Under the pieces are notes generated by a model. It had not been told where the DNA came from. It did no database searches and was given only the letters and a program-made list of their open reading frames with translations. From positions 1 through 37,171 of IMG/VR virus record IMGVR_UViG_3300006920_000105: a DNA stretch of 37,171 nucleotides, one strand, 5' to 3'. This document shows positions 13,267 through 35,370 of this stretch, in pieces (positions within the stretch are counted from its first letter, which is position 1; every line of letters starts with the position of its first letter). The DNA is from a virus. Position numbers and translations under genes: made by a program.

Positions 13267-15918
13267 TCAGTACCACTTTCCTACGGCGTGGAGGGACACC
13301 GTTACGGATGCGGTGCTTGCGCTTGTTCCTGTCCGCCAAGCCATGAGGCTCGTGACTGCGGTTGCGCTAAAGGATTGACAGGATGCGTGCACCAGCCGGG
13401 CCACGTCGGCCGCGGTGTTTACGCGGGGTGAGATTGAGAGCGCAGCGATGGACGAGAATGGCTCTGCCCACGTGTGGCTTGCCACTGCGGTTCGGTTCGG
13501 GTCCACGAACGTGCCGGTGCCGAGGGCCGTCGGGTCTCCGAGGGAGACGTCCGCCCATTGTTCCATGGTCCCGTCCGCGTATTTGATCCAGCGGTTGGGC
13601 GATGTGCCGCCGCTTTCGATGATCGCCCCCGTGGGGGTTCCGCCAGACTGGCTAACTGTGCCGACGGGGCGGCCAATAGGCGTGCGGACGCCGCTCTGAT
13701 CGCCGACAGACCAACCAATGCTCGGCTCGAAAATGAGGGCGCGGGTGTAGTCCATGAGGCCCGAACCGGCGGGGCCGACGAGGGAGATGACCCCGGTCCC
13801 CGAGGTGTTCGTGACTTGCATCGCGTCGCCGCCGTCGAGGCTGTCTTTCGGGTGGACAGCCACCGCCCCCGCAGAGGTCTTGGTCAGAACGCCGGGCTGG
13901 GCGAAAGACAGCAATCCACGTGCGTAGCTTGTCGCGCCGGTGGTTGGGCTCGAACGCAGGTTGCCGCTTGCGACGTACCCACGAGAGTTTGCCGCCGCCC
14001 ACGTGCCGGTGCCTTCGAAGGTAAACTCGTCGCCGGAGGCAACGGCGATGTTTTCACTGAACAGGTTGTTCGTTATCACGAAACCATCCAGTGTTCTGGA
14101 CACGGCGGTTGTGTAGAAGCGGACATAGCTGTCCATCTGCACGTCCGCCGGGGCGAGGACGATGAACGTGTTGTTTGCGAACAGGGACGCCGCTTCGCCG
14201 AAGCCTTGATCGACGTCCCAATGGACTACGCCGTTGTCGATGTAGTTGTTTGTTATCACTGAGTTTTTGGTTCTGAGGCACATGCTGATTGCCTCTTTCC
14301 CGACGGGCGTGGCCTTGGCTGGCGTGCCCTCGTCAGTGCTGCCGTTGAACGGGTGGTTGCCGATTATCTGCATTTTGCTGCCCCACGCCCGGATCGGGAC
14401 GAGGCAGTAGAACGGCGTGTTGTTGACAATGCGGCTGTCCGTGGTGCGGACGTCGATCAGGCAGGCGGTGCGCTCGTTCCAGTCGTCGAAGTTGGTCTCG
14501 TTGAAACTGTACTGGCACCAGCGGTTGTCGGCGATGGTGAGGTCGCCGTTCTGAGACCCCTTCGCGTAGACGCCAAACTCTTTGGGGGCGTGGCCGTAGG
14601 TGTTCCAGATGCCGCAGCGGTGTTTTGTGTCCTCAAACTCCACGAAGCCGTTGGCGACGTGGTTGCCTTCAAAGGCCATGTCGCGGAAACGAACGCTAGT
14701 GGCCCGGTCGGAGCCGACCTTGTTGACCTTGAACATTGGGTTGCCGTAGCCGTAGTCCGACCGGCGTTCGTCCTCCACGCCGGGCGCTCCCGCCACCCAA
14801 CTTGCGGACGCGAGGGCAACGACACGCATGTCGCAAATGTCGATAAACTTGTAGCCCGACATGTCGATTGTGTCTGATATGGCGATATCTTCACTCAGGC
14901 CGGTCACGGTGGCTTGCGCCGCTTGGGCGGGCCACTGCTCTTCCGTGAGACTGAGGGAATTGGCGTAGGTCGTGGCGCGCTGGAGGGGGGTCGTCATGTC
15001 CGTGACGCCGGGGAAGGTGTTCTGGCCGAAGTGCTGGACGGCGATGAAGGGGTCGGCGGGCGACCACTTGCTGGAGCCCGCCGTCGTCATGGCTGTGCCT
15101 GCGGCGTCGCGCTTCAAATTCAAGATCACGCCGTTGGCGGCGTGGAACCGGAGGCGGGTCACGCTGCCGGAGATGGTGGCTGCCTCTGCGGTCGCATAGT
15201 CGGCGTAAGTGGGGTCCGTGGCGGGACCGGCAGGGCCGGTGTCTCCCGTCAGGCCGGTGGGGCCTGTGGGCCCGGTGGGTCCGGACAGTCCGGTGGGGCC
15301 TGTGGGTCCGGTTGGGCCTGCGGGTCCGGTTGGGCCTGCGGGTCCGCGAAGTGAACCGAGGTAGTCGTAGGACGCCGGGGCGTCGGCGATGGTTGCTTGC
15401 AGCAACATGAGGTCCGTGCCGGTGTCGTGGATCACGTAGTCGCCCACGCGGAGGGTGGCGGGCGGCGCAGCTTCGGGGTCGTCGGCGGTGAAAAGGAGGC
15501 GGGTGCCCGCCTCACCTGTCTGGCCGGTGAGTTGCAGTCCGGGGGTCCAGTCGCCGGGGGTGGCGCTGGCCTTGTAGTAAATCTGGCCGGTTTCGACGTC
15601 CAAGAACGAGAAGAACGCCGCTTCACTGTCGTAGGTGGTGCGGTCCGCCGTCAGACCTTCGGCGTCCGCCGTCAAAGATTGGCCGTCGTCGCCCCGGATG
15701 GACTGGAGGTCCGGGGGTAGGATCAACCATTCCTCCCTGATCCGACCGTCTGGGTCGATGGTTTGCCGAATAAAATCAATGACGTTGCCGAGGGTTGTCC
15801 ACACCCGGTTCAGTTCGTTGTCAATCTGGGTGCCCTCGTGGGGCTGCGCTGGCTTTGTCTCAGAGAAGCTTCGGAACGAATACTGCCTTTGGGACTTTAC
15901 AGGGACCGGTTCTGTCAT
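13267..15918 (-). CDS. Tail fibre / tailspike with collagen-like shaft and beta-helix
   Basis: 883 aa. The N-terminal about 190 residues would attach to the tail. Residues about 191-232 are a run of Gly-x-x triplets rich in GPTGP, a collagen-like trimer shaft. The middle (about 330-640) has repeated Asn-rich turns such as [11 protein letters not shown] and FVITNNLF, typical of a right-handed beta-helix spike that may cut or bind surface polysaccharide. The end carries [18 protein letters not shown], a common C-terminal fibre module. It is likely the main host-range determinant. Confidence 0.85.
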
Positions 15919-16500: not shown

Positions 16501-16817
16501 CTCTTTCTCCTTTTGAGCGCGTGGCCGCATCCTACAATGTCGGCTGGCTGACTGTACATCGGCACTTACGATAACCTACTTGCCCATTGTCACCGCATCC
16601 GCCGCATCTGCGGACGCCAGGCGCACCAAACAACCTGGCGCGAGATCCGGGCTGCGGACGTGGGGCGCAACAAAAAAGCCCGGTCCGCTGTTGTGGCGGG
16701 CCGGGCTTCATTTCGCTTGGTGGCGTTATATCGCTGCGCAGATTGCTTCGACCAGTGCGAAGGCTGCTGCGCTTGCGAGCAACAGCCTGACCGCTTGTGC
16801 GGGCCTATTGCGCCCCA
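16501..16817. other. Intergenic region between small-terminase candidate and VWA gene
   Basis: These 317 bases hold the AGGAG site for the gene at 16500, CCTACAA at 16531-16537 (TTGTAGG on the minus strand), and the terminator of the gene upstream. No open frame here has a credible start and composition. The remaining sequence shows nothing I can name. Confidence 0.5.
16672..16707 (-). terminator. Rho-independent terminator of CobS/CobT-like operon
   Basis: On the minus strand a GC-rich stem (AGCCCGG at 16701-16707 with CCGGGCT at 16677-16683, plus further inner pairs) is followed by TTTTTT. It lies about 110 bases past the stop of the VWA gene and separates this operon from the late genes. 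Confidence 0.85.
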
Positions 16818-18809
16818 TCACCTGCCAGCACCTGACGCCTTGCCGCTGGCCAGCAATACTTGCGCCACCATCTCGGGCAACCGGGCGACGTCTGTACAGT
16901 TCACGGAAAAGGACGGGCCGAAAAGATCCACTATGGCGCTACAATTCAGCGCCACCGCGACATGCTCCACGCCTGACCGGCGGGCGCGTGCAAGCTGCTG
17001 TTGGGTCGCTGTTGGGTCGTGGGGGTCTCCGTCACACAACCAGACGCACACCCGGCGCTCGGTCCTGCGTGCCGCAAGTTGCCGGGTGGCCCATTTAACC
17101 TCTGCCGCCATTGGCGTCCCGCCTCTGGGCTGCAATTCGCCGCATGTCCGGACGAGATCCAGCACACCTCTGTCACTTCCAAAGCGCTTCACCTGCGTGA
17201 TTGTCTCAGGAATGTCGCTGCCTGCAAACATAGCGAGCGCGCTCTCTGCGCCTGCTCGTTTCAGCGCGGGCATCATCGCCTCTAACATCGCGATGGACGC
17301 CGCCCACAAATTTGTCTGCCCTTGGCCAATGGCGGTCTCGTCAAACATACTGCTGGACGCGTCCAGCATGATCTGGACCGCCGTTGTCACGCCGGGGGTC
17401 AGTTCTCGTGTGGTGTACAGATCCCGGCATCCGGCCAAGGCGCGAGGCATCGCTCGGGCGTCCAGTCGGCCAGCCAAGTTGCGCCGTGTGATTTGAAGCT
17501 GCTCCACGCTACGCAGTCCGCGCCGGAACGCGTCCGCCATTTGGCGCGCTGGCATCGCGCGCTTGGCCTCCGCCAGATAGCGGGCGTAATCTTTGAGGAT
17601 GGGCGTGTAGTCGCGGAGCTGGTACATCTTGCGCCGCCGTTTTTGGTGGTCCTCGAAGGTCGCGGCGTCCGCGGACGGGACAACTGCGTAATTAGCGCCT
17701 GCCGCGTCCTTGCCGCTCCGGGTAGGTGCGAGGTCCGCCAATAGTTCTTCTCTTGTCTGGGGAAGATCCGGGGCAATGTCGCCGGGGCCGCCCTGACTTG
17801 CGCCTTTGCCTTGGCCTTCGCCTTTGCCCTCGCCCTCGCCCTCGCCTTGGCCTTCGCCTTGGCCTTCGCCTTGGCCTTCGCCCTCGCCTTGGCCTTGGCC
17901 TTCGCCTTGGCCTTCGCCCTCGCCTTGGCCTTCGCCTTGGCCTTCGCCTTGGCCTTCGCCCTCGCCTTCGCCCTCGCCTTCGCCTTCGCCCTCGCCTTTG
18001 CCTTCGCCTTTGCCTTCGCCTTTGCCGTCTTCGGGCGTGTTCTGCGCGGGGGTTTGGAGCAGCGCCGCAAGAAGTTCTGCTGCTAATTTGATGCGGGTCG
18101 CTGCTGCCAGTCTGCCGGGACGAGCGTCCTGTTGGCTCGCCAATCCCGTGACCGTTTCAACTGCCGTCTCGACTAGGGCCAGAACAGCGGGGTCCGCTAT
18201 CTGGCGGACGCGTGCCAAGTTCACGTCCAGCTTGGGCGTGTTCTGGTAGCCTCGGGCGTTGATGCTCGCCCCTAGAAGCACCTGCGCTTGGTGCGCCGGG
18301 TCGGTGGGTAGAGTGGCGTGAGGCCAGATCATGACTTGCTCGTTCAACTCGCCCAATAGGTCGCGCGCTGCGCCTGCGAACTTGTTTCGGGGCTTGCTCG
18401 CCCACGTTTCGATATACATGTCCTCGATGGCGTTCGTCATCTGGTGCAACTGTGGGAGGGGCACGCCATGCACCCTTGCCGCGACTTGCAGTCTGTTGCT
18501 CAGTTTCTCCATGTCGGACAAAACCGCGTGCAATGTCTCATGGACAACGTAGGCCATAAGCGTCCGGGCGAATTTCCCGGACACCTGTTTATCTGGGTCA
18601 TACGTTGGGAGGCTGATCGTTAACTCTCCGGCCGTCGCCGATATTCTGGCGGTCTCACCTCCGAGCAAATCGACGTTCACTTGGTGGATATCGGATCCGG
18701 ACTGGCCGGTGGTCATCGCTTTGACCGTTTTCGTCACTGCGCTTGCGAAGTCCTCGTAGGACACCCAAACGGCAAAGTCATAAAGGTTTTTATCTGCGGT
18801 GGTTTTCAT
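16818..18809 (-). CDS. Metallopeptidase-VWA protein (CobT/DUF2201-like)
   Basis: 663 aa from ATG at 18809 (AGGAG 8 bases upstream). The N-terminal domain carries HETLH at about residue 91, an HExxH zinc-peptidase motif. Residues about 261-334 are a Gly-Glu/Gln/Lys repeat linker encoded by a 6/12-bp DNA repeat. The C-terminal von Willebrand A domain has a MIDAS motif DASSSM (about 482), GGTPM, and an acidic CDGDPHD loop. CobT and DUF2201-type proteins act with a MoxR/CobS AAA+ ATPase, here encoded 26 bases upstream. There is no CobN, so a cobalamin role is unlikely. Function in the phage is unknown. Confidence 0.85.
17805..18030 (-). repeat. Coding tandem repeat for a Gly-Glu linker
   Basis: About 225 bases of repeats built from CCTTCGCCTTGG and CCCTCGCC variants on the plus strand, encoding GEGQGEGE-type residues in the VWA protein. 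The unit length keeps frame, so copy-number change by slippage would alter linker length without breaking the gene. Confidence 0.85.
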
Positions 18810-18834
18810 GATGTGTCTCCTTTTTTCTGGTGTT

Positions 18835-20337
18835 TCAGTTGAAAGCGTTCTGCGGGATGTTGGCCGTCCACAATTGGCGAAGCGGCTCGCGGTCGTCATA
18901 TGGTGCGGTTTGCAAAACCGCCAAGTGTAGCGCCTCCGCGCCGGACGCACCGGATGCGATGCAGCCTGCCAGCGCTTCCAGCCGCCGGAAACCAAGTCCG
19001 TGTGACAGGTTGCCTTCACCGGAGGCTTTGCGGGTCTTGCCTGCGAAATCCACAAGGATGCGCGCGTGTTTTGCGTCGATCCCGGTCCGCTGAACAAGCA
19101 GTTTGCTCTCTGCTTTGGCGGGCAGGTAGTCGATTGGTACTGTGATGCTGAACCGGTCCAGCGTGGCCCGGTTCATAACGCGAGTGCCTTCGTAAGCGCC
19201 GTTCTCGTCACCGGTGCCGGAAGTGTTGTCCGCTGCGAGGAAAACAACGCCGGGGGCAACGGGCACGATCTCGCCAGTGTCCGGGATTTGGAGCGTGCGG
19301 TCCGCGTCCAGCACTGATTGCAGCACCATCATTGCGCCGGGGCGTGCGGCGGATGGCTCGTCAATCAAAATGACCGTGCCGGGGCGACGGATGGCTGCCG
19401 TCAATTGTCCGTCCTGCCAGACTGTTGATCCGTCCACTAGGGCGGGCATCCCAACAAGCGTCGGTGCGTCCGTTTGATCCGTGCACGATATGCGGACAAA
19501 TGGCCGGTTGAAGCGTGCCGCGACTTGCTTGGCGAAAGTCGTTTTGCCTGTCCCGGCTTGGCCAGTCAGGAAAACATTGCGACATGCGGCAAGTTCGGCG
19601 AGGACAAGCGCCGTGTGCTCGGACCAAACATAGCTTGCGTCCGTGGCTGGTGCGTCTGGTGCGTCATATACATCGAAAGTAGCTGCCGCCTGTTTGGCCG
19701 TCATCGGTGTTTCGATCCCGGACGCGTCCAGCCGCCGAGGCTCCGTGATTTTAGGAATGTGTCCCTTGATCTTTGCCGGGTCGATTGCTGCGCGCTCCAC
19801 GATGCGAACGATTGCCGCCGGGGGTGGCGTGCAAGCTTTGACGGCCATGCGGTGCAACAGCGCCTTGTATCCGTCAAAGTCTCCGGATCCCATCAGGCTT
19901 TGCAGCTTCACCACTGCGGCCCGCGCGGTCTTCTCCACGTCTCCGTCCTCGCCTTCGCCTTCGCCTTGGCCCTCGCCTTGGTCCTCGCCTTGGTCTTGTT
20001 CCTCTGGGACGTCCGCTGTTGGTGCGCCGTTGTTAGTGTTGGTCGCCAATGCCAGCACTGCGGCCCCGCCGAGCCCTTCCGTTGCCGCTCTGGCGTTTAC
20101 CGCGTCCATTGCTTGAGCGGACGTCATGCCGTTCGCCTTGGCTTGGTCGTACCATGTCGCCTCGCGTTCGGTCGGCTGATCGAAGCCCAACAGCGTGGCG
20201 TATTGGCTCAGGTCCGCGACGCTTGCGCCTGTTACTAGCTGTGGGTCGCTGCCCACAATCGCCTCGCGGTCTGGGTGGTTGCGGATGCGGCTCTTGATAA
20301 TCGTCCGGGCGGAACCTTTGAATGTCATGCTTGTCAT
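18835..20337 (-). CDS. MoxR/CobS-like AAA+ ATPase
   Basis: 500 aa from ATG at 20337, chosen because AAAGGA lies about 10 bases upstream; the frame stays open for 114 more codons through a GC minisatellite, which I exclude. The N-terminal part is helical with an acidic linker ([17 protein letters not shown]). The AAA+ core has Walker A GQAGTGKT (about 259-266), Walker B VILIDEP (about 322-328) and a sensor-like AADNTSG. Ring ATPases of this class remodel targets through a VWA partner, and the CobT-like gene follows directly. Similar pairs are known in some Caulobacter and marine phages. Confidence 0.87.
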   Translation of the reverse strand: MTSMTFKGSARTIIKSRIRNHPDREAIVGSDPQLVTGASVADLSQYATLLGFDQPTEREATWYDQAKANGMTSAQAMDAVNARAATEGLGGAAVLALATNTNNGAPTADVPEEQDQGEDQGEGQGEGEGEDGDVEKTARAAVVKLQSLMGSGDFDGYKALLHRMAVKACTPPPAAIVRIVERAAIDPAKIKGHIPKITEPRRLDASGIETPMTAKQAAATFDVYDAPDAPATDASYVWSEHTALVLAELAACRNVFLTGQAGTGKTTFAKQVAARFNRPFVRISCTDQTDAPTLVGMPALVDGSTVWQDGQLTAAIRRPGTVILIDEPSAARPGAMMVLQSVLDADRTLQIPDTGEIVPVAPGVVFLAADNTSGTGDENGAYEGTRVMNRATLDRFSITVPIDYLPAKAESKLLVQRTGIDAKHARILVDFAGKTRKASGEGNLSHGLGFRRLEALAGCIASGASGAEALHLAVLQTAPYDDREPLRQLWTANIPQNAFN

Positions 20338-20397
20338 GTCTGTTTTTCCTTTGTCGGTTGTGCAGGGCGGATTGCCCCGTCCATTCCTTACCAAATT

Positions 20398-20423: not shown

Positions 20424-20588
20424 GGCGTCCGGGCGACAAAGGCGTCCGGGCGTCCGGGTCTGGACGTCTGGGTCTGGGCGTCCGGACGTCTGGCCGCCGG
20501 GTCTGGCCGCCGGGTCTGGACGTCTGGGTCTGGGCGTCTGGCCGCCGGGTCTGGGCGTCCGGGTCTGGGCGTCTGGGCGTCCGGGGCG
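20424..20588. repeat. GC-rich minisatellite
   Basis: Imperfect repeats of about 12-16 bases made from GGCGTCCGG, GACGTCTGGGTCT and GCCGCCGGGTCTGG units; the last occurs three times. The plus strand is G-rich with regularly spaced GGG tracts. There are no stops in some frames, but composition is not coding. Confidence 0.8.
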
Positions 20589-20651
20589 CGCGCGCGCCGT
20601 CGGGCTGCCCAGCTTTCTGGTGCGGACAACCCGCTAAATCCGTGCTACGTA

Positions 20652-20686
20652 ACCCGCACAACCCGCACAACCCGCACAACCCGCTG
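20652..20686 (+). repeat. Tandem ACCCGCACA repeats (four units, last partial)
   Basis: A 9-bp unit repeats directly at 20652, 20661, 20670 and 20679, ending in CCGCTGG next to the SD. An additional CAACCCGC lies at 20627-20634. Iteron-like spacing just before a start codon could be a protein-binding array or simple slippage. Confidence 0.8.
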
Positions 20687-20699
20687 GGAGGATTTCATT

Positions 20700-21356
20700 G
20701 TGACCGATATTTCAAAAGAAAAACGAGATAAACTTTTAGCCACGCTGGAGCGCATCGAAGCCGCGCCCGAAAAGACCCGCAGGACCAAGCGGCTCAATCT
20801 CAACCCCAAAGTCGAACAGCGCGTCACCCCGGAGGGCAAGTTGGCCCGTGGGGGGTGGCGTGGCCAGCCGGGGTCACTGGCCGCGCTGGACGTGCACCGG
20901 GGGCGGACGCTCATTCACTTGCTGCCCAAGTGTGCAGGCGTGACTAAGCTCGGCAAGCCTTGCGGCAAGCCTAAGATGCGAGAGAGTGAGTTTTGCTGGA
21001 CGCACAACAGTCCGGGGTTCCTGTCGGCTCGGACCAAGAAAGACCTGCTCTGGAAACCTAGCCGCACGCGGGTTCTGCGAAGGGCGCTGGGCAATCTGGT
21101 TGCGACGCCGGGGATGGTGCCGGAGGAATTGAAGCAACAACCCGTGTTCATGGCGGTGGCGGAGATAGCCTACAACAACCGGTACATTCCCCGTGACAGC
21201 GGCACCCCGTTAGAGGTCCGGCTCAAACATGCGCGAAGGTGGGAGGTCGCCGGACGCCTCACATTGGAGTTGGCCAATGCGTGGCACTCGCTAGTTGGGG
21301 ATGGGAACCACGAGGGGTGGCACCGGGCCGTGGAGAAGGCGCGCAGACTAGTCTAG
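20700..21356 (+). CDS. Zinc-finger-like protein of unknown function
   Basis: 218 aa from GTG at 20700, chosen because GGGAGGA stands 8 bases upstream; the longer open frame is minisatellite. A basic N-terminal helix (residues 4-34) precedes CAGVTKLGKPC, then FCWTH, a Cys-x9-Cys-x10-Cys-x2-His pattern like the small zinc motifs found in many phage and bacterial proteins. The C-terminal half is helical and basic. It is a monocistronic gene between a repeat array and an AT-rich island, so a DNA-binding role is reasonable but unproven. Confidence 0.65.
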   Translation: MTDISKEKRDKLLATLERIEAAPEKTRRTKRLNLNPKVEQRVTPEGKLARGGWRGQPGSLAALDVHRGRTLIHLLPKCAGVTKLGKPCGKPKMRESEFCWTHNSPGFLSARTKKDLLWKPSRTRVLRRALGNLVATPGMVPEELKQQPVFMAVAEIAYNNRYIPRDSGTPLEVRLKHARRWEVAGRLTLELANAWHSLVGDGNHEGWHRAVEKARRLV

Positions 21357-21768: not shown

Positions 21769-24270
21769 TTACGGCATGTTGCTTAAGAGCCGATCCCGAT
21801 CTTCCTTCATGATCCGCTCCAACTCGGCGGCTGCTTGGTCGGCCATCCACCGCCCGCCTTTGGTCTTCGCATCCACGACGTCCCTCGGCGTTAACGCAGG
21901 GCCCGCCCACATGGATGCGCGCGACACGCCTGAAGTCCGCACTTGGCCAAGGTTCGTACAACCCGCCGCCTTCATGCCTTGAACGATCACCTTGAGTGTA
22001 AGCCCGCCCGCCTTCACGGACGTGGGGGCCGCAACGGCGGCGTAGCTTTCAATCTCGTTTGCCGTCAGGAACCGCCGCCCGTGGAACCTGCCGCCCACAA
22101 CGAACTGATCCAACACCCACTTGGATTTGTCACTGAGGTTGTGGGCGAGCATCGCGGCTTTGGAGCCGGACGTGTCAGGCGGCAGCAAGTGCGGGTTAAA
22201 GTTTGACAGGTCTCGGGCCAACAAGAACCCCATAACCCGCTCCGCCTCCGCAACGGACCCGATCACCGGGGCCATGCGCTTGTACCAATCAGGGGCTTTT
22301 GGGTCCGCTGGTGACACGTAGGCCGCGATGCGCCTATCGTCGTCCTCCAGACCTCGCATCGCGTCCATATGGTTGGTGAAACCAATGAAGTTGGCCGTGG
22401 GCTCAAATGAGAAAGTCTTTGCGTACTTGCCGTTTATTTCGATCCGCCCGGCGTTCTGCCCGGTCCAGTCCTTCAACTTGTTGTACAAAGCCCCGTCCGC
22501 GCCGAACCGCAATTCCGGCATGACCACCATTTTCGCCCGTTGCCAAGAGTTGAACTGGCTTTCCAAGCGAGTGTTGTTCACGAACTGGACATTGTGCGCG
22601 CCCAAGATGTGAACCAACGGAGACAACCAAGTGTCTTTGCCGACCCCCTGCCCGCTGGCGATAAACAGCACCACAGGTGTTCTCTTGCCCGGAAACTGAA
22701 CTTGGTAGGCCAACCAGTCCAACGCATAATTCCGGAAATCGTCGCAAGGCAACATGTATCCGGTCAAATCAAGCCACGCGTCCGGCACGCCCGCGCTCGC
22801 CACCAAGCCCCCCGGCGTCCACGTGTTGATCTGCTCAACCTTCTGTCCATGTTCGTTCACGGCCAACACGACGGGGTCCTCCACGCCGGGTTTGTAGGTC
22901 ACTCCGTAAGCCGTCCGGCGATCAGGATGGTTGCGCAGGACATTGCACACCCGCTTCGCTCCGCTCAACCCGGCGGGATAGTGGGGCAGCACATCGGCGT
23001 GAAACTCCAGTTGCTTCTCGTCCATCAACTCCCGGTCCTCGGTGTCGAAGAAACCCTTGACCGGCCCAACCCAAACGAACCGCTCGACCAGACGCTCGGT
23101 GGCCGCGTCCAAGGCTTCCGCCGCCTGCGTCGCGCGCACCTCCATCCTCCGGGCCATTTCCTCGGCGTCATGCACAGCAGGGCTGTCGTCAACAACAGCC
23201 TGCCCAAACTTAACGCCGTGTTGCTCGAATGAGGCCCGCGCCTCGAAAGTCTGCGCGGACAAAGGCAGGTCCGCCGGGCGAGACCCAACAGCCTCCATCG
23301 CAGAAACGTGGTCCTCGTACTGCCCCCGGATCATCGCCGCGAAGTCCGGCGAGCGCAGCCCGTCGCAAGACGCGTGGTTGCAGTGACACAACCCGCCCCC
23401 TAAAAACGCAAAGCCAGTCTCTGGCCGGTCGCCATGTTCTGCCATGTTAGGACATAGCGCGTCGATCACCCCTTGGCGCGTCGAAGGGACGGGGTTAAGC
23501 CCCACCACACCGGCCATCCGGACAAGGGGGTCCTCCGCGTCCGCCACCCGAGCCAACGCGCCGTTGCCCACTGAGGCCAACTGACGGCCCGTCATAGCCA
23601 TTTGCGGAACAGGCGCGTTCCTCCAATCTTCCCGGCCAAGCAACACTTGACCTATTTCGTCCAAAGATACTTTGTGACCTCGGTCCCACGTCACGGACGA
23701 CACACTCGGCGGCCTCTCACCGGGCCCCCGGTATTTGGGCTTGGAATTCCAACCCATAGGGAGCCGCAGATACCGGGTCGGGTCATGCAGCGCGTCCGTC
23801 AGCTTCGCCTCAATCATGTAGGCCCGGATCAGCGCCAATTCGTCGCGCCTCTCGTCCGTGGTAGGATCACCGTCCAGCGCCCAGACCCAACTCTCATTGC
23901 CGGGCGATGTTTCGATCCGCACGGTCGGCTCCGGGAACCCCACCGCAAACATGGTGTCCCACAACCCGCGATCCACCTTCGTTCCAATGTCGTCGGCGTA
24001 CAACACGGGCTGCGATACGACTTCGCCAAGCGTCCGGTTGTTGGCCCCCGCCCGGATCAGTCCGGTGCAGAAGTACAAGTCCGCTTCGCGCGGGTCAGGC
24101 ACGGCGCGCTTCAAACGCTCCAGCCCCTGCATCCCGAACCAAGACGCCCCCTTCTCTATGTCCGAAAAACCGGCGAGCCAAACTTGCTCGACCTTATCCA
24201 CACCATACAACTCAACTAAGAAGCTTCGCACCACATTCCAATCAAGGCTCTTGTTCGTCGGGTCCGTCAT
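21769..24270 (-). CDS. Primase-helicase (SF3 helicase, DUF5906-type)
   Basis: 833 aa; AGGAG lies 6 bases before the ATG. The N-terminal about 350 residues are primase-like, with FSDIEKGASWFG and a Cys/His cluster (GGGLCHCNHASCDG) that may bind zinc. The C-terminal helicase carries Walker A ASGQGVGKDT (about residue 535), MVVMPELRFG as Walker B-like motif, and NFIGFTNHMDAM as an SF3 sensor motif. Such proteins open the origin and prime synthesis. The gene is monocistronic, with its own terminator and an upstream gap containing a degenerate operator. Confidence 0.85.
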   Translation of the reverse strand: MTDPTNKSLDWNVVRSFLVELYGVDKVEQVWLAGFSDIEKGASWFGMQGLERLKRAVPDPREADLYFCTGLIRAGANNRTLGEVVSQPVLYADDIGTKVDRGLWDTMFAVGFPEPTVRIETSPGNESWVWALDGDPTTDERRDELALIRAYMIEAKLTDALHDPTRYLRLPMGWNSKPKYRGPGERPPSVSSVTWDRGHKVSLDEIGQVLLGREDWRNAPVPQMAMTGRQLASVGNGALARVADAEDPLVRMAGVVGLNPVPSTRQGVIDALCPNMAEHGDRPETGFAFLGGGLCHCNHASCDGLRSPDFAAMIRGQYEDHVSAMEAVGSRPADLPLSAQTFEARASFEQHGVKFGQAVVDDSPAVHDAEEMARRMEVRATQAAEALDAATERLVERFVWVGPVKGFFDTEDRELMDEKQLEFHADVLPHYPAGLSGAKRVCNVLRNHPDRRTAYGVTYKPGVEDPVVLAVNEHGQKVEQINTWTPGGLVASAGVPDAWLDLTGYMLPCDDFRNYALDWLAYQVQFPGKRTPVVLFIASGQGVGKDTWLSPLVHILGAHNVQFVNNTRLESQFNSWQRAKMVVMPELRFGADGALYNKLKDWTGQNAGRIEINGKYAKTFSFEPTANFIGFTNHMDAMRGLEDDDRRIAAYVSPADPKAPDWYKRMAPVIGSVAEAERVMGFLLARDLSNFNPHLLPPDTSGSKAAMLAHNLSDKSKWVLDQFVVGGRFHGRRFLTANEIESYAAVAAPTSVKAGGLTLKVIVQGMKAAGCTNLGQVRTSGVSRASMWAGPALTPRDVVDAKTKGGRWMADQAAAELERIMKEDRDRLLSNMP

Positions 24271-24405: not shown

Positions 24406-25497
24406 CTACGCGCGAACGGCCACCAACCCCACAGGCCCGGACGCGTTCACCGCCGCCAAGCCGAACCCCGGCTGGTAGTGGGCGTAATGTTTCTGCGTGA
24501 CCTCCAAGGTATCCCCCAAGATAGCCGCGATCTGGTCCAGAGGCACACCCCACCCGGCCCGCAGCGTGGCCCACGTCCGCCGCAAATCGTGAATAGTGAG
24601 ATTGGAAGGGAACTGGTATTTCTGCGTGAACCGCTTGAACGCCTGCCGGACCTTGCCGTCGTGACCAAGCACGTGCACCCCGTCCGTTCCGTCCTCCCCG
24701 GCCCGTGCCTTCAAGTCCATCAGGACAGGCATCAGCTTATCACTGATAGGCACCGGCACCCGGCGCTTCTTCGTTGTGGCCCGCGTCGGGTCCCGAAAAT
24801 CAATTAACTTGTTAACTAAATCTACCCTGTCCCACGTGAGCCCACGGATTGCGCTCTCGCGCGCCGCCGTCTCCAACGCCAGACAGATGAACGCGCCAAC
24901 CCGACGATACTGGAAATGTGCACTCCCCACGCACACCACGGACGCACACGTAAACATGCGGTTCGCCCCGCCCTCGTTCAAGTAAAACAACCTCGGCGGG
25001 CTATCGGCAGGCAGGTCGAACGCGGGGATATCCGCCGGGTCGATCAGACTGCGCCGTGGGTTCGCGGCCCAATTCATCGCCGCGCGAAAGGCGGACAGGT
25101 CCCGCCTCACAGTTCCGGGCTTCACCCCGGCCTTGGCCCGCGCAAGCTTGAACCTCTCCACGTCCGCGAAACCAAGCGAACCCACATCCAAGGCCCCCAA
25201 CTCCCGCCCGACAACCCGCAGCGAAAACATGTTCGTCGGGCTGGCGTTATTCACCTCCACGTGTTCGGCCACGTAGCGGTCGATCACATCTTGCACGGTC
25301 ATGCCGCGCACGGACGCCTCGTAGCTGGCCCGTTGCGCTAGCCACACATCTTTGAAGCGTTCAGCCTCGCGCTTGTTCGGAGTGCCGCAAGACTGGCTGC
25401 GCGATCTACTGCGGCCCGCGTCGTCGTCCCGCTCAGACCACCGGATTTCCCACCGGCCTGACTTGTTTTGCGCAAGTTTGTATTCCGTTCCCGCCAT
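24406..25497 (-). CDS. int: Tyrosine-recombinase integrase
   Basis: 363 aa from ATG at 25497 (GAGAGG 7 bases upstream). An N-terminal beta-rich arm-binding-like part (YKLAQNKSGRWEIRWSE) precedes a core-binding helical domain and the catalytic domain. Catalytic residues seen are Arg in AARESAIRGLTW, His and Arg in IHDLRRTWATLRAG, and a terminal Tyr in TQKHYAHY. It would integrate the phage at a host attachment site. Its start lies inside the Xis-like frame, an unusual 160-base overlap. The candidate attP is 11 kb away on this map. Confidence 0.9.
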   Translation of the reverse strand: MAGTEYKLAQNKSGRWEIRWSERDDDAGRSRSRSQSCGTPNKREAERFKDVWLAQRASYEASVRGMTVQDVIDRYVAEHVEVNNASPTNMFSLRVVGRELGALDVGSLGFADVERFKLARAKAGVKPGTVRRDLSAFRAAMNWAANPRRSLIDPADIPAFDLPADSPPRLFYLNEGGANRMFTCASVVCVGSAHFQYRRVGAFICLALETAARESAIRGLTWDRVDLVNKLIDFRDPTRATTKKRRVPVPISDKLMPVLMDLKARAGEDGTDGVHVLGHDGKVRQAFKRFTQKYQFPSNLTIHDLRRTWATLRAGWGVPLDQIAAILGDTLEVTQKHYAHYQPGFGLAAVNASGPVGLVAVRA

Positions 25498-31370: not shown

Positions 31371-31628
31371 ATGGCCAGCACTTCCAACACCCGGCGCGAC
31401 GCCGAAAACAACGCCCAACGCATATCCGACTATTGGGCCCGGCAGGGTTTTCGTGTCCTTACGAAAATCGTCCGGGAGCCATGGGTCCGAGGCGTGAACA
31501 CTCCCGGTTACTCCGTCCGGACGGACATGCTGGACGGCCTCCCCTACGCGCACCCCCTGAACGTCAACCGCCGGGCAAGACAGTCCGACGAACAGAAGGA
31601 GAAACCAAGTGGCCCGAGAAGAAGATAA
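31371..31628 (+). CDS. Small basic protein of unknown function
   Basis: 85 aa with an Arg-rich composition, an N-terminal helix (AENNAQRISDYWARQGFRV) and a disordered basic end. The pattern ISDYWARQGFRV is seen in short phage proteins encoded near DUF2815, but I cannot name a family. Its 3' end overlaps the next gene by 20 bases, which argues for coupled translation. Confidence 0.6.
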   Translation: MASTSNTRRDAENNAQRISDYWARQGFRVLTKIVREPWVRGVNTPGYSVRTDMLDGLPYAHPLNVNRRARQSDEQKEKPSGPRRR

Positions 31629-31971
31629 AGTCCCCGGATGGAAGGACGACGGCGACAAGGTTCGTATCGAACTGGTCCCGTCCGAGTTTGTGTTCGCCAC
31701 TGCTGCCGTCCTGACCTTCGGCGCGAAGAAATATTCCGACCGGAATTGGGAAAATGGAATGTCTTGGGGCCGCGTGTTCGGCGCGCTGATGCGCCACTTG
31801 TGGGCTTGGTGGGCGGGGCGCGGCCCGGCGACCGTCAACTTCCTGTTTGGTGAATTGGACGACGAAACGAAACTCTCGCACCTATGGCACGCGGCGTGCT
31901 GCCTCTCCTTTCTGATCGCCTACGAACAGCGCCCGGCGATGGCCCCCTTCGATGATCGGCCCACGCCATGA
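31609..31971 (+). CDS. dATP/dGTP pyrophosphohydrolase-like protein (MazZ/DUF5664 family)
   Basis: 120 aa from GTG at 31609 (AGGAG 7 bases upstream). The family pattern is clear: VLTFGAKKYSDRNWENG, then ALMRHLWAWWAG and ETKLSHLWHAACCLSFL. This all-helical MazG-like fold has metal-binding Glu/Asp/His residues. The family includes MazZ of cyanophage S-2L, which makes dGMP for 2-aminoadenine synthesis; most members occur without that pathway and probably adjust nucleotide pools. Its stop overlaps the next ATG. Confidence 0.8.
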   Translation: MAREEDKVPGWKDDGDKVRIELVPSEFVFATAAVLTFGAKKYSDRNWENGMSWGRVFGALMRHLWAWWAGRGPATVNFLFGELDDETKLSHLWHAACCLSFLIAYEQRPAMAPFDDRPTP

Positions 31972-34432: not shown

Positions 34433-34633
34433 ATGAAACTAGCACTGGACGTCTTCGCCGTCGCCGCAGCGTATTTTGGGTTTTACGGCTACGTGTTCCC
34501 CGAGATGCTGCTCCGCGCAGAGATGAATTTTTTCGTGGCCTTCGCCGCCGCCTGCCTTGCCGTTGCCGGGCCTCTGCTGTGCGCCGCCTTCCTTGGCTAC
34601 CGCCACCCCAAACTTCTAGGAAAAGATCAATGA
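34433..34633 (+). CDS. Small two-helix membrane protein
   Basis: 66 aa from ATG at 34433 with AAGGA 7 bases upstream. Two hydrophobic segments (about residues 4-21, LALDVFAVAAAYFGFYGY, and 31-53, FFVAFAAACLAVAGPLL) flank a short polar turn; the C-terminus is basic. Its stop overlaps the HD gene start as ATGA. It could be a second holin, a pinholin or a superinfection-exclusion protein; location in the early operon favours a non-lysis role. Confidence 0.65.
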   Translation: MKLALDVFAVAAAYFGFYGYVFPEMLLRAEMNFFVAFAAACLAVAGPLLCAAFLGYRHPKLLGKDQ

Positions 34634-35370
34634 CCCTCATAGCGTTCGACAAAGACCCGCGCGACGAAGCCAACCCGTGGACGCAAACGGCGTCCGGCAT
34701 TAAGTTGGACCTGCTGGCCCCCACCCCGGAAATGATCCATTGGCCGGACGTGGCGCAGGGCTTGTCCCGAGCGAACCGTTTCAACGGCATGACCGCCGAG
34801 CCGTACTCAGTCGCAGAACACTGCTGCAAAATGTACGACTTCATAACCTCCGACGGCGCGCCCCCTGCGGCACGAGCGTGGGCACTGCTTCATGACGCGC
34901 ACGAAGCCTACATCGGCGATATCGTCACACCGGTGCCCCCGGCCCTTGGCATGTACGCCGCCCGGCACGTTCGGTTCACCGACGAGGACGCCCCCGAGGG
35001 CAGCAAAGAGAGCGAAATGATAAACGCCGTCATGGTGCGCGCGATCCCCCATATAATCTTACAAGCACTGGACGGCTTGAAGCACGAATTAGACCACGCC
35101 ATTTTTGGAGCCGCCGGGTTCCCCCCTCCATGCAAGGCCAGCCGCGCCGAAACGCTTGTACTCAAAATGATAGACAAAGCCTTCGGCTTGGCGGAGCGCA
35201 ACAAGCTTATGGGCCCCCCGCCGGAGAAATGGCCGGACGAAGATGAATTGAGCAAGATGCAAAATATAGATGTAGAATTTGAGTGCTGGCCCCCGGAGCG
35301 CGCCGCCAAGGAATATCTAGGCCGTCTTCTCGAATTGGGCATCTGCCGCCCTCCGTCAACACTGAATTGA
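34630..35370 (+). CDS. HD-domain phosphohydrolase (5'-nucleotidase / dNTPase-like)
   Basis: 246 aa. Family signatures: TASGIKLDLLAPTPE, LSRANRFNGMTAEPYSVAEHCCKM (His ligand within SVAEH), and ALLHDAHEAYIGDI, the HD pair. A later Asp in MIDKAFGLAERN fits the fourth ligand. The family includes YfbR-like 5'-deoxynucleotidases and phage dATPases such as DatZ. It is likely a metal-dependent nucleotide hydrolase that changes the dNTP pool; substrate cannot be read from the sequence. A DUF1653-like gene follows. Confidence 0.82.
   Translation: MTLIAFDKDPRDEANPWTQTASGIKLDLLAPTPEMIHWPDVAQGLSRANRFNGMTAEPYSVAEHCCKMYDFITSDGAPPAARAWALLHDAHEAYIGDIVTPVPPALGMYAARHVRFTDEDAPEGSKESEMINAVMVRAIPHIILQALDGLKHELDHAIFGAAGFPPPCKASRAETLVLKMIDKAFGLAERNKLMGPPPEKWPDEDELSKMQNIDVEFECWPPERAAKEYLGRLLELGICRPPSTLN

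Follow-up and report, generated by a model that had tools for sequence, protein, structure and literature searches.

We analysed a stretch of 37,171 nucleotides, an IMG/VR virus record taken whole (IMGVR_UViG_3300006920_000105; hereafter, the window), and focused on two adjacent genes that encode a MoxR/CobS-type AAA+ ATPase and a protein joining an HExxH motif to a von Willebrand factor A (VWA) domain. We consider it probable that the two genes make up one ATP-driven remodelling machine, in which the metal-ion-dependent adhesion site (MIDAS) of the VWA domain would grip a target and the gluzincin-like head of the same protein would cut it, probably in the early or replication phase. The remodelling machine of the MoxR-VWA kind is a well-supported part of this proposal, and the zincin head is likely to be catalytically active. 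The pair is not peculiar to this phage: it is widespread, and earlier papers describe it either as phage 'CobST' or as a MoxR ATPase with a metallopeptidase-vWA partner.

The ATPase and its HExxH-VWA partner

Both genes lie on the minus strand with 25 bp between them. The two open reading frames proposed by a first-pass annotation of this DNA were confirmed, and Walker A, Walker B, HETLH, and MIDAS were all found in the translations.

The AAA+ gene (18835-20337, ATG at 20337) encodes 500 aa, with its own N-terminal extension and a short Glu/Gln/Gly-rich stretch. The protein matched AAA_5 (3e-19), CbbQ_C (6e-7), and phrog_249 (3e-63), and among PDB sequences midasin (2e-37), CobS (6e-29), and NorQ (1e-25). 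Walker A (GQAGTGKT, residues 259-266) is encoded at 19540-19563 and the acidic pair D326-E327 of Walker B (IDE) at 19357-19362. In 14 phages, G259, G262, G264, K265, and E327 were invariant, as were the sensor N371 and the arginine R395, and D326 was nearly so. With these residues and a CbbQ-type C-terminal part, the protein is a MoxR/CbbQ-type AAA+ ATPase.

The partner gene (16818-18809, ATG at 18809) encodes a phage 'CobT-like' protein of 663 aa with the order HExxH-linker-finger-VWA. The zincin metal-binding motif HETLH (residues 90-94; 18528-18542) is followed by NAIEDMYIE (residues 126-134; 18408-18434), a candidate third-ligand helix with conserved E129 and D130. E129 sits 35 positions past H94, an arrangement of HExxH plus downstream Glu that points to a gluzincin-like metallopeptidase. 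The linker (residues 257-403; 17601-18041) is predicted to be disordered, with a predicted local distance difference test score (pLDDT) < 50, and carries a GEGEG/GQGEG hexanucleotide repeat at 17801-18026 (37.7 copies of a 6-mer in Tandem Repeats Finder). The finger region (residues 404-470; 17400-17600) contains a conserved G447-R448 (GRLD) and aligns with the VWA plus finger of NorD. The VWA domain (residues 476-660; 16830-17384) adopts the VWA fold in the model and holds a complete MIDAS (D483-x-S-x-S, T565, and D593); VWA_3 of Pfam matched below threshold only. Thus, HETLH and a complete MIDAS are joined in one protein, as the first-pass annotation had described.

Relatives of the AAA+ protein were found in 772 phage records. 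Among isolates, the nearest is Microcystis phage Mae-Yong1326-1 (OP028995), with 'CobS' and 'CobT' (42% and 32% identity) adjacent like the window pair and presenting HETLH, a GEG-rich linker (GEGSG), and VWA. Its capsid, integrase, and replication genes are related to those of the window, but the pair is inverted relative to the primase, and the record names a cobaltochelatase. This phage was reported from Microcystis, yet its GC content is 71.8% and several of its best matches are alphaproteobacterial, and the host assignment is worth a second look; the nearest genome match of the window's clade is a Devosia metagenome-assembled genome (MAG; L029).

We examined 14 further phage records. An HExxH-VWA partner was located near the AAA+ gene in eight (S-H25, T5S1, DLP6, PhiR41_1, Kpn 1825-KPC53, Cantare, Austin, and Mbo2), and five (P70, A511, Wilder, Mithridates, and 3-521) presented instead a DUF7192 (PF23822) protein near a CobS-like AAA+ gene. 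For Mel-JY01, neither partner was seen within the stretch examined. DUF7192 may itself be VWA-like, lacking the MIDAS. IMG/VR scans provided about 35 additional loci, several on contigs that end before the partner gene. At nearly all viral loci where that gene was expected inside the contig, the partner presented both HExxH and MIDAS; the third-ligand match was weak at L088, and no partner was seen near the AAA+ gene at L005. In L084 and L087, the head and VWA parts are in different frames, which is a split gene, a frameshift, or a sequencing error.

Among 12 phage proteins that are 15-31% identical to the window protein, the start Met, H90, E91, H94, E129, D130, G447, D483, S485, S487, D593, and G594 were invariant. 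A second set (n = 10) displayed the same pattern, including G447 and D130, with E129 only nearly invariant. The head alignment (n = 24) retained P68, H90, E91, H94, E129, and D130 without exception, and in a full-length alignment from other contigs (n = 19) E134, R448, and T565 were additionally invariant; H90, E91, and H94 were invariant in all four alignments, which share members. Since zincin and MIDAS residues are invariant at such low identities, they support a MIDAS-guided machine with a peptidase-like head. The loss of Walker A or MIDAS residues in relatives had been named beforehand as fatal to the idea, and both were kept throughout the relatives' alignments. Moreover, across 24 pairs the distances of the three parts (AAA+, head, and VWA) correlate with one another, with r 0.73-0.77 (0.73-0.74 between AAA+ and partner) and Mantel p 2e-4, the lowest value that the permutations allow: the ATPase and its partner are co-inherited.

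Structure models of single chains agree with this domain layout. The head alone was modelled with pLDDT 88.7 and a predicted template modelling score (pTM) of 0.87. Foldseek placed the zincins MATCAP, selecase/jannalysin, and SPRTN among its best PDB matches, at E-values of 0.13-2.3 that are individually not significant, and among viral models it retrieved phage 'CobT' and VWFA proteins, HHTV-2, HCTV-2, and Cantare. The full-length model (pLDDT 70, pTM 0.47) comprises a folded head (residues 14-252), the disordered stretch 257-403, and a finger/VWA half (404-660). For this half, the top five matches were NorD of NorQD complexes (E 2e-9 to 4e-9), in alignments of 250-272 columns that span more than a bare VWA; plain VWA domains ranked behind. 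The first-pass annotation had read the pair as a remodelling module, with the HExxH-VWA protein as partner and CobN missing; both the residue conservation and the NorD-like C-terminal half support this reading.

In NorQD, the ring pore takes up a finger beside the VWA domain; ATP hydrolysis has been proposed to twist the VWA domain and stretch the linker (PMC13036017). NorD shares the N-domain-linker-VWA layout of the window protein, but NorQ/NorD inserts iron in nitric oxide (NO) reductase. By analogy, the phage AAA+ protein would form a ring, and the finger beside the VWA domain of its partner would enter the pore. ATP hydrolysis would then twist the VWA domain and pull the flexible acidic linker, while the MIDAS would hold a specific protein target, most likely a host or replication protein in the early or replication phase, to be cut or trimmed by the N-terminal gluzincin-like domain. 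We infer the ring-finger contact, the peptidase activity, the timing, and the target, the first of them from homology to NorQD.

The same combination appears in other phage groups. Iyer et al. 2021 (PMC7824862) described MoxR and metallopeptidase-vWA pairs in group 2.2 jumbo phages and proposed a role in virion assembly; by the architecture described, the domain order is that of the window pair, and their examples are from jumbo phages only. The T4-like cyanophages carry a 'peptidase' (phrog_459) and cobS as core genes, and this peptidase presents HEVGH...NVLEDARIER plus MIDAS next to an AAA+ gene as in the window, but VWA precedes AAA+, and the identity to the window VWA protein is 17%.

Relation to CobT and NorD

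The best PDB sequence match of the partner was CobT (9uka_G, 1e-28). When 16 phage heads were compared with 15 chromosomal CobT heads using hhalign, the probability was 98.5% with linker ends and 96.3% (E 1.6e-9) without them, against at most 0.2% for reversed and column-shuffled controls; these E-values refer to a single comparison. The family link does not depend on hhalign alone, since the PhiR41_1 partner carries HEVAH and matches Pfam CobT (9e-27) and CobT_C (8e-82) above the cut-off. None of the 15 aligned chromosomal CobT has HExxH: the aligned stretch is DA-x-AL-like, while the E-x-x-R-V/I-E helix is kept in most. Three further divergent CobT-type ORFs lack HExxH too. Thus, cobaltochelatase CobS/CobT is homologous to the phage pair in the AAA+ part, the finger/VWA part, and the N-domain, but it needs CobN and its CobT has an N-domain without HExxH, whereas the window protein carries HETLH.

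Some bacterial MoxR ATPases are accompanied by DUF2201 proteins (PF13203/PF09967), which combine a metallopeptidase-like N-domain with a VWA-like domain. The first-pass annotation had suggested a profile search against the DUF2201 and CobT families. The window protein matched neither, with nothing for DUF2201_N even at E 1 and nothing over the cut-off for PF06213/PF11775. DUF2201_N also gave nothing over the cut-off in 41 alphaproteobacterial genomes.

Several authors (PMC8651126, PMC9503304, and others) suggest that the phage CobST pair replaces or boosts host CobS and CobT, hijacks host CobN, and raises the cobalamin supply. The homology behind this proposal is real, from the Pfam matches of PhiR41_1 to 9uka_G and the CobS match of the ATPase, and CobN hijacking has been proposed in print. 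We nevertheless regard it as very unlikely, although the phage of the window might itself still draw on a CobN of its host. The AAA+ protein scored 106 bits against the NCBIfam CobS equivalog TIGR01650, far under its cut-off of 558.6 bits, and HExxH is invariant in the phage proteins and missing in CobT. CobN (PF02514) was absent from the window and from a 47,464-bp sibling contig, as the first-pass annotation had stated for the former, and from seven annotated phage records; six of these hold an HExxH-VWA pair, and the seventh, Listeria P70, a CobS-like AAA+ with DUF7192. Among 14 control genomes searched for CobN, E. coli had no match, though PhiR41_1 has the pair and E. coli K-12 as listed host. 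The Devosia MAG, which contains a prophage-like region belonging to the window's clade, already owns CobN and CobT. Finally, among the 41 alphaproteobacterial genomes, CobT was found in 27 and CobN in 16, and 12 of the 27 CobT-positive genomes, some perhaps incomplete, had no CobN match; a Caulobacter control genome was likewise CobT-positive and CobN-negative. Chromosomal CobST itself therefore need not be a chelatase.

A metal-insertion or cofactor-assembly chaperone without proteolysis is also improbable, if less so; here HExxH/E would bind a metal and hand it to a target, in the way that NorQD serves NO reductase. NorQD and CobNST both insert metals, and two NorD-like proteins (L032 and L034) present HAAAH/HATAH plus LLEDARIE/LVEDARVE at the place equivalent to the phage HExxH plus NxxEDxxIE, with the histidines kept and the catalytic Glu lost. 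The comparison of NorD-head and phage-head profiles was weak (probability of 31%, with the NorD profile from two sequences). Opposing this role, E91 is invariant in all phage alignments, although a pure metal carrier could do without it, and the neighbourhoods hold no constant metalloenzyme target gene.

At the literature level, PMC8651126 considers the 'peptidase' annotation of cyanophage cobT a mistake. This view seems doubtful from the alignments, since phage heads keep HExxH, the homologous CobT heads lack it, and PhiR41_1 links the two families. PMC11288001 calls phage cobT a lower-ligand enzyme, confusing the chelatase CobT with the phosphoribosyltransferase CobT. We found no knock-out or biochemical study of a phage cobST pair in a literature search that left subscription journals mostly outside its coverage.

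Genomic setting and timing

The window represents most of a ~47 kb phage genome, since the 47,464-bp sibling contig is near-identical (99.8-99.9%), circularly permuted, and ends within the VWA gene, in its GEGEG repeat. The phage encodes portal, terminase, capsid, tail-fibre, integrase, repressor, primase, RuvC, SNF2, exonuclease, single-stranded DNA-binding protein, and DNA polymerase A genes, and from this gene set it looks temperate. The pair is flanked by a collagen-type tail-fibre gene (13267-15918) on one side and by the primase (21769-24270) and integrase (24406-25497) on the other, which agrees with its initial placement between late and replication blocks. Apart from the pair, PF18909 (dATP/dGTP diphosphohydrolase N-domain) and a dNMP phosphatase (31609-31971 and 34579-35370) lie beside DNA polymerase A, like in diaminopurine phages; PurZ was sought in the window and the sibling with regard to a diaminopurine genome, and none was found.

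Each gene has its own ribosome-binding site on the minus strand (AAGGA at 20347-20351 for AAA+ and AGGAG at 18817-18821 for VWA). On the same strand, the pair ends with the terminator that the first-pass annotation had assigned to it, an intrinsic hairpin with U-tract at 16676-16708 (-32.2 kcal/mol, z -3.83), whose stem a second scan recovered as well. The promoter with an operator-like dyad was not borne out: a scan for sigma-70-like promoters found none, and the 'dyad' falls in a degenerate 14-bp tandem repeat array (20424-20585, tandem-repeat search). The description of the module as self-contained is thus supported for the ribosome-binding sites, the terminator, and the conserved adjacency, but not for the promoter and operator. 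Tandem repeats of 14 bp and 9 bp extend over 20424-20684, between the pair and a gene at 20700, and the GC skew changes sign near ~21 kb; this stretch is a possible origin or regulatory region.

Neighbourhoods were compared in about 15 annotated records and some 30 contigs. The order integrase-primase-AAA+-VWA recurs in the window's clade (L029, L038, L063, L064, L065, and L067), frequently preceded by a repressor and followed by a tail-fibre gene. The primase is convergent at L070, L079, and L085; at L074 and L077, the pair is followed by RuvC and SNF2. In S-H25, DLP6, T5S1, PhiR41_1, and Cantare, the pair is flanked by replication, recombination, or nucleotide genes; neighbours in the annotated phages include clamp and clamp loader, primase, DNA polymerase, ThyX, MazG, RuvC, and SNF2. 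Of 80 primase-anchored viral loci, only the five with a primase identity of at least 38% had the AAA+ gene within the stretch examined. The pair is therefore a feature of the clade and is not common to all phages with such a primase. The first-pass annotation had named counter-defence, virion maturation, and host takeover as possible roles, all of them still hypothetical. From these gene orders, we lean towards action in the early or replication phase rather than in virion maturation.

The role in virion assembly or maturation, with the ring pair remodelling and cleaving a structural protein as a chaperone-protease, is possible but has the lesser chance of being right. Iyer et al. 2021 put it forward for jumbo phages with this domain pair, it has a precedent in ATV p618/p892 (cited there and in PMC7911831), and a tail-fibre gene is located just downstream in the window. 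On the other hand, the terminator stands between the pair and the late genes, and the five annotated phages with replication, recombination, or nucleotide neighbours hold the pair outside the structural block. The machine could also dismantle or cleave a host immune complex. Such counter-defence would be in line with the integrase and primase that adjoin the pair in temperate phages, with a broad but patchy distribution, and with an architecture suited to a specific target. We judge it unlikely, as PADLOC gave weak generic AAA matches only and no defence-related family, and cobS is core in T4-like cyanophages, which is more typical of a basic infection function.

Several points weigh against the peptidase machine that we prefer. 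Proteolysis by the head is a prediction, HExxH could bind a metal without cleavage, and the PDB fold matches of the head lack significance (best E 0.13). The contact between AAA+ and VWA rests on NorQD homology, the models being single chains, and the co-inheritance test cannot tell common ancestry from functional coupling. Neighbourhood evidence is guilt by association. Moreover, the pair shares its strand with the late genes and adjoins the tail-fibre gene, which would allow late expression, although the terminator separates it from the late genes.

Implications for phage 'CobST' pairs

This type of pair was already known. What we add is that zincin and MIDAS residues are its main invariants at 15-35% identity, and that CobT heads are homologous without HExxH. 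Tentatively, phage 'CobST' pairs in general could be widespread ATP-driven, MIDAS-guided zinc proteases, and the N-domains of CobT, and perhaps NorD, relatives that lost the protease site; we would hold this broader view with less than even confidence. Such pairs are core genes of marine T4-like cyanophages, are also carried by phages infecting several bacterial phyla and by haloarchaeal viruses, and are frequently listed among vitamin-B12 auxiliary metabolic genes. The conserved zincin residues speak for keeping the 'peptidase' label and for putting the B12 reading to the test. If the broader view is true, the 'auxiliary B12 genes' of hundreds of phages would be a misannotated protein-processing machine, and the count of viral influence on marine cobalamin would change.

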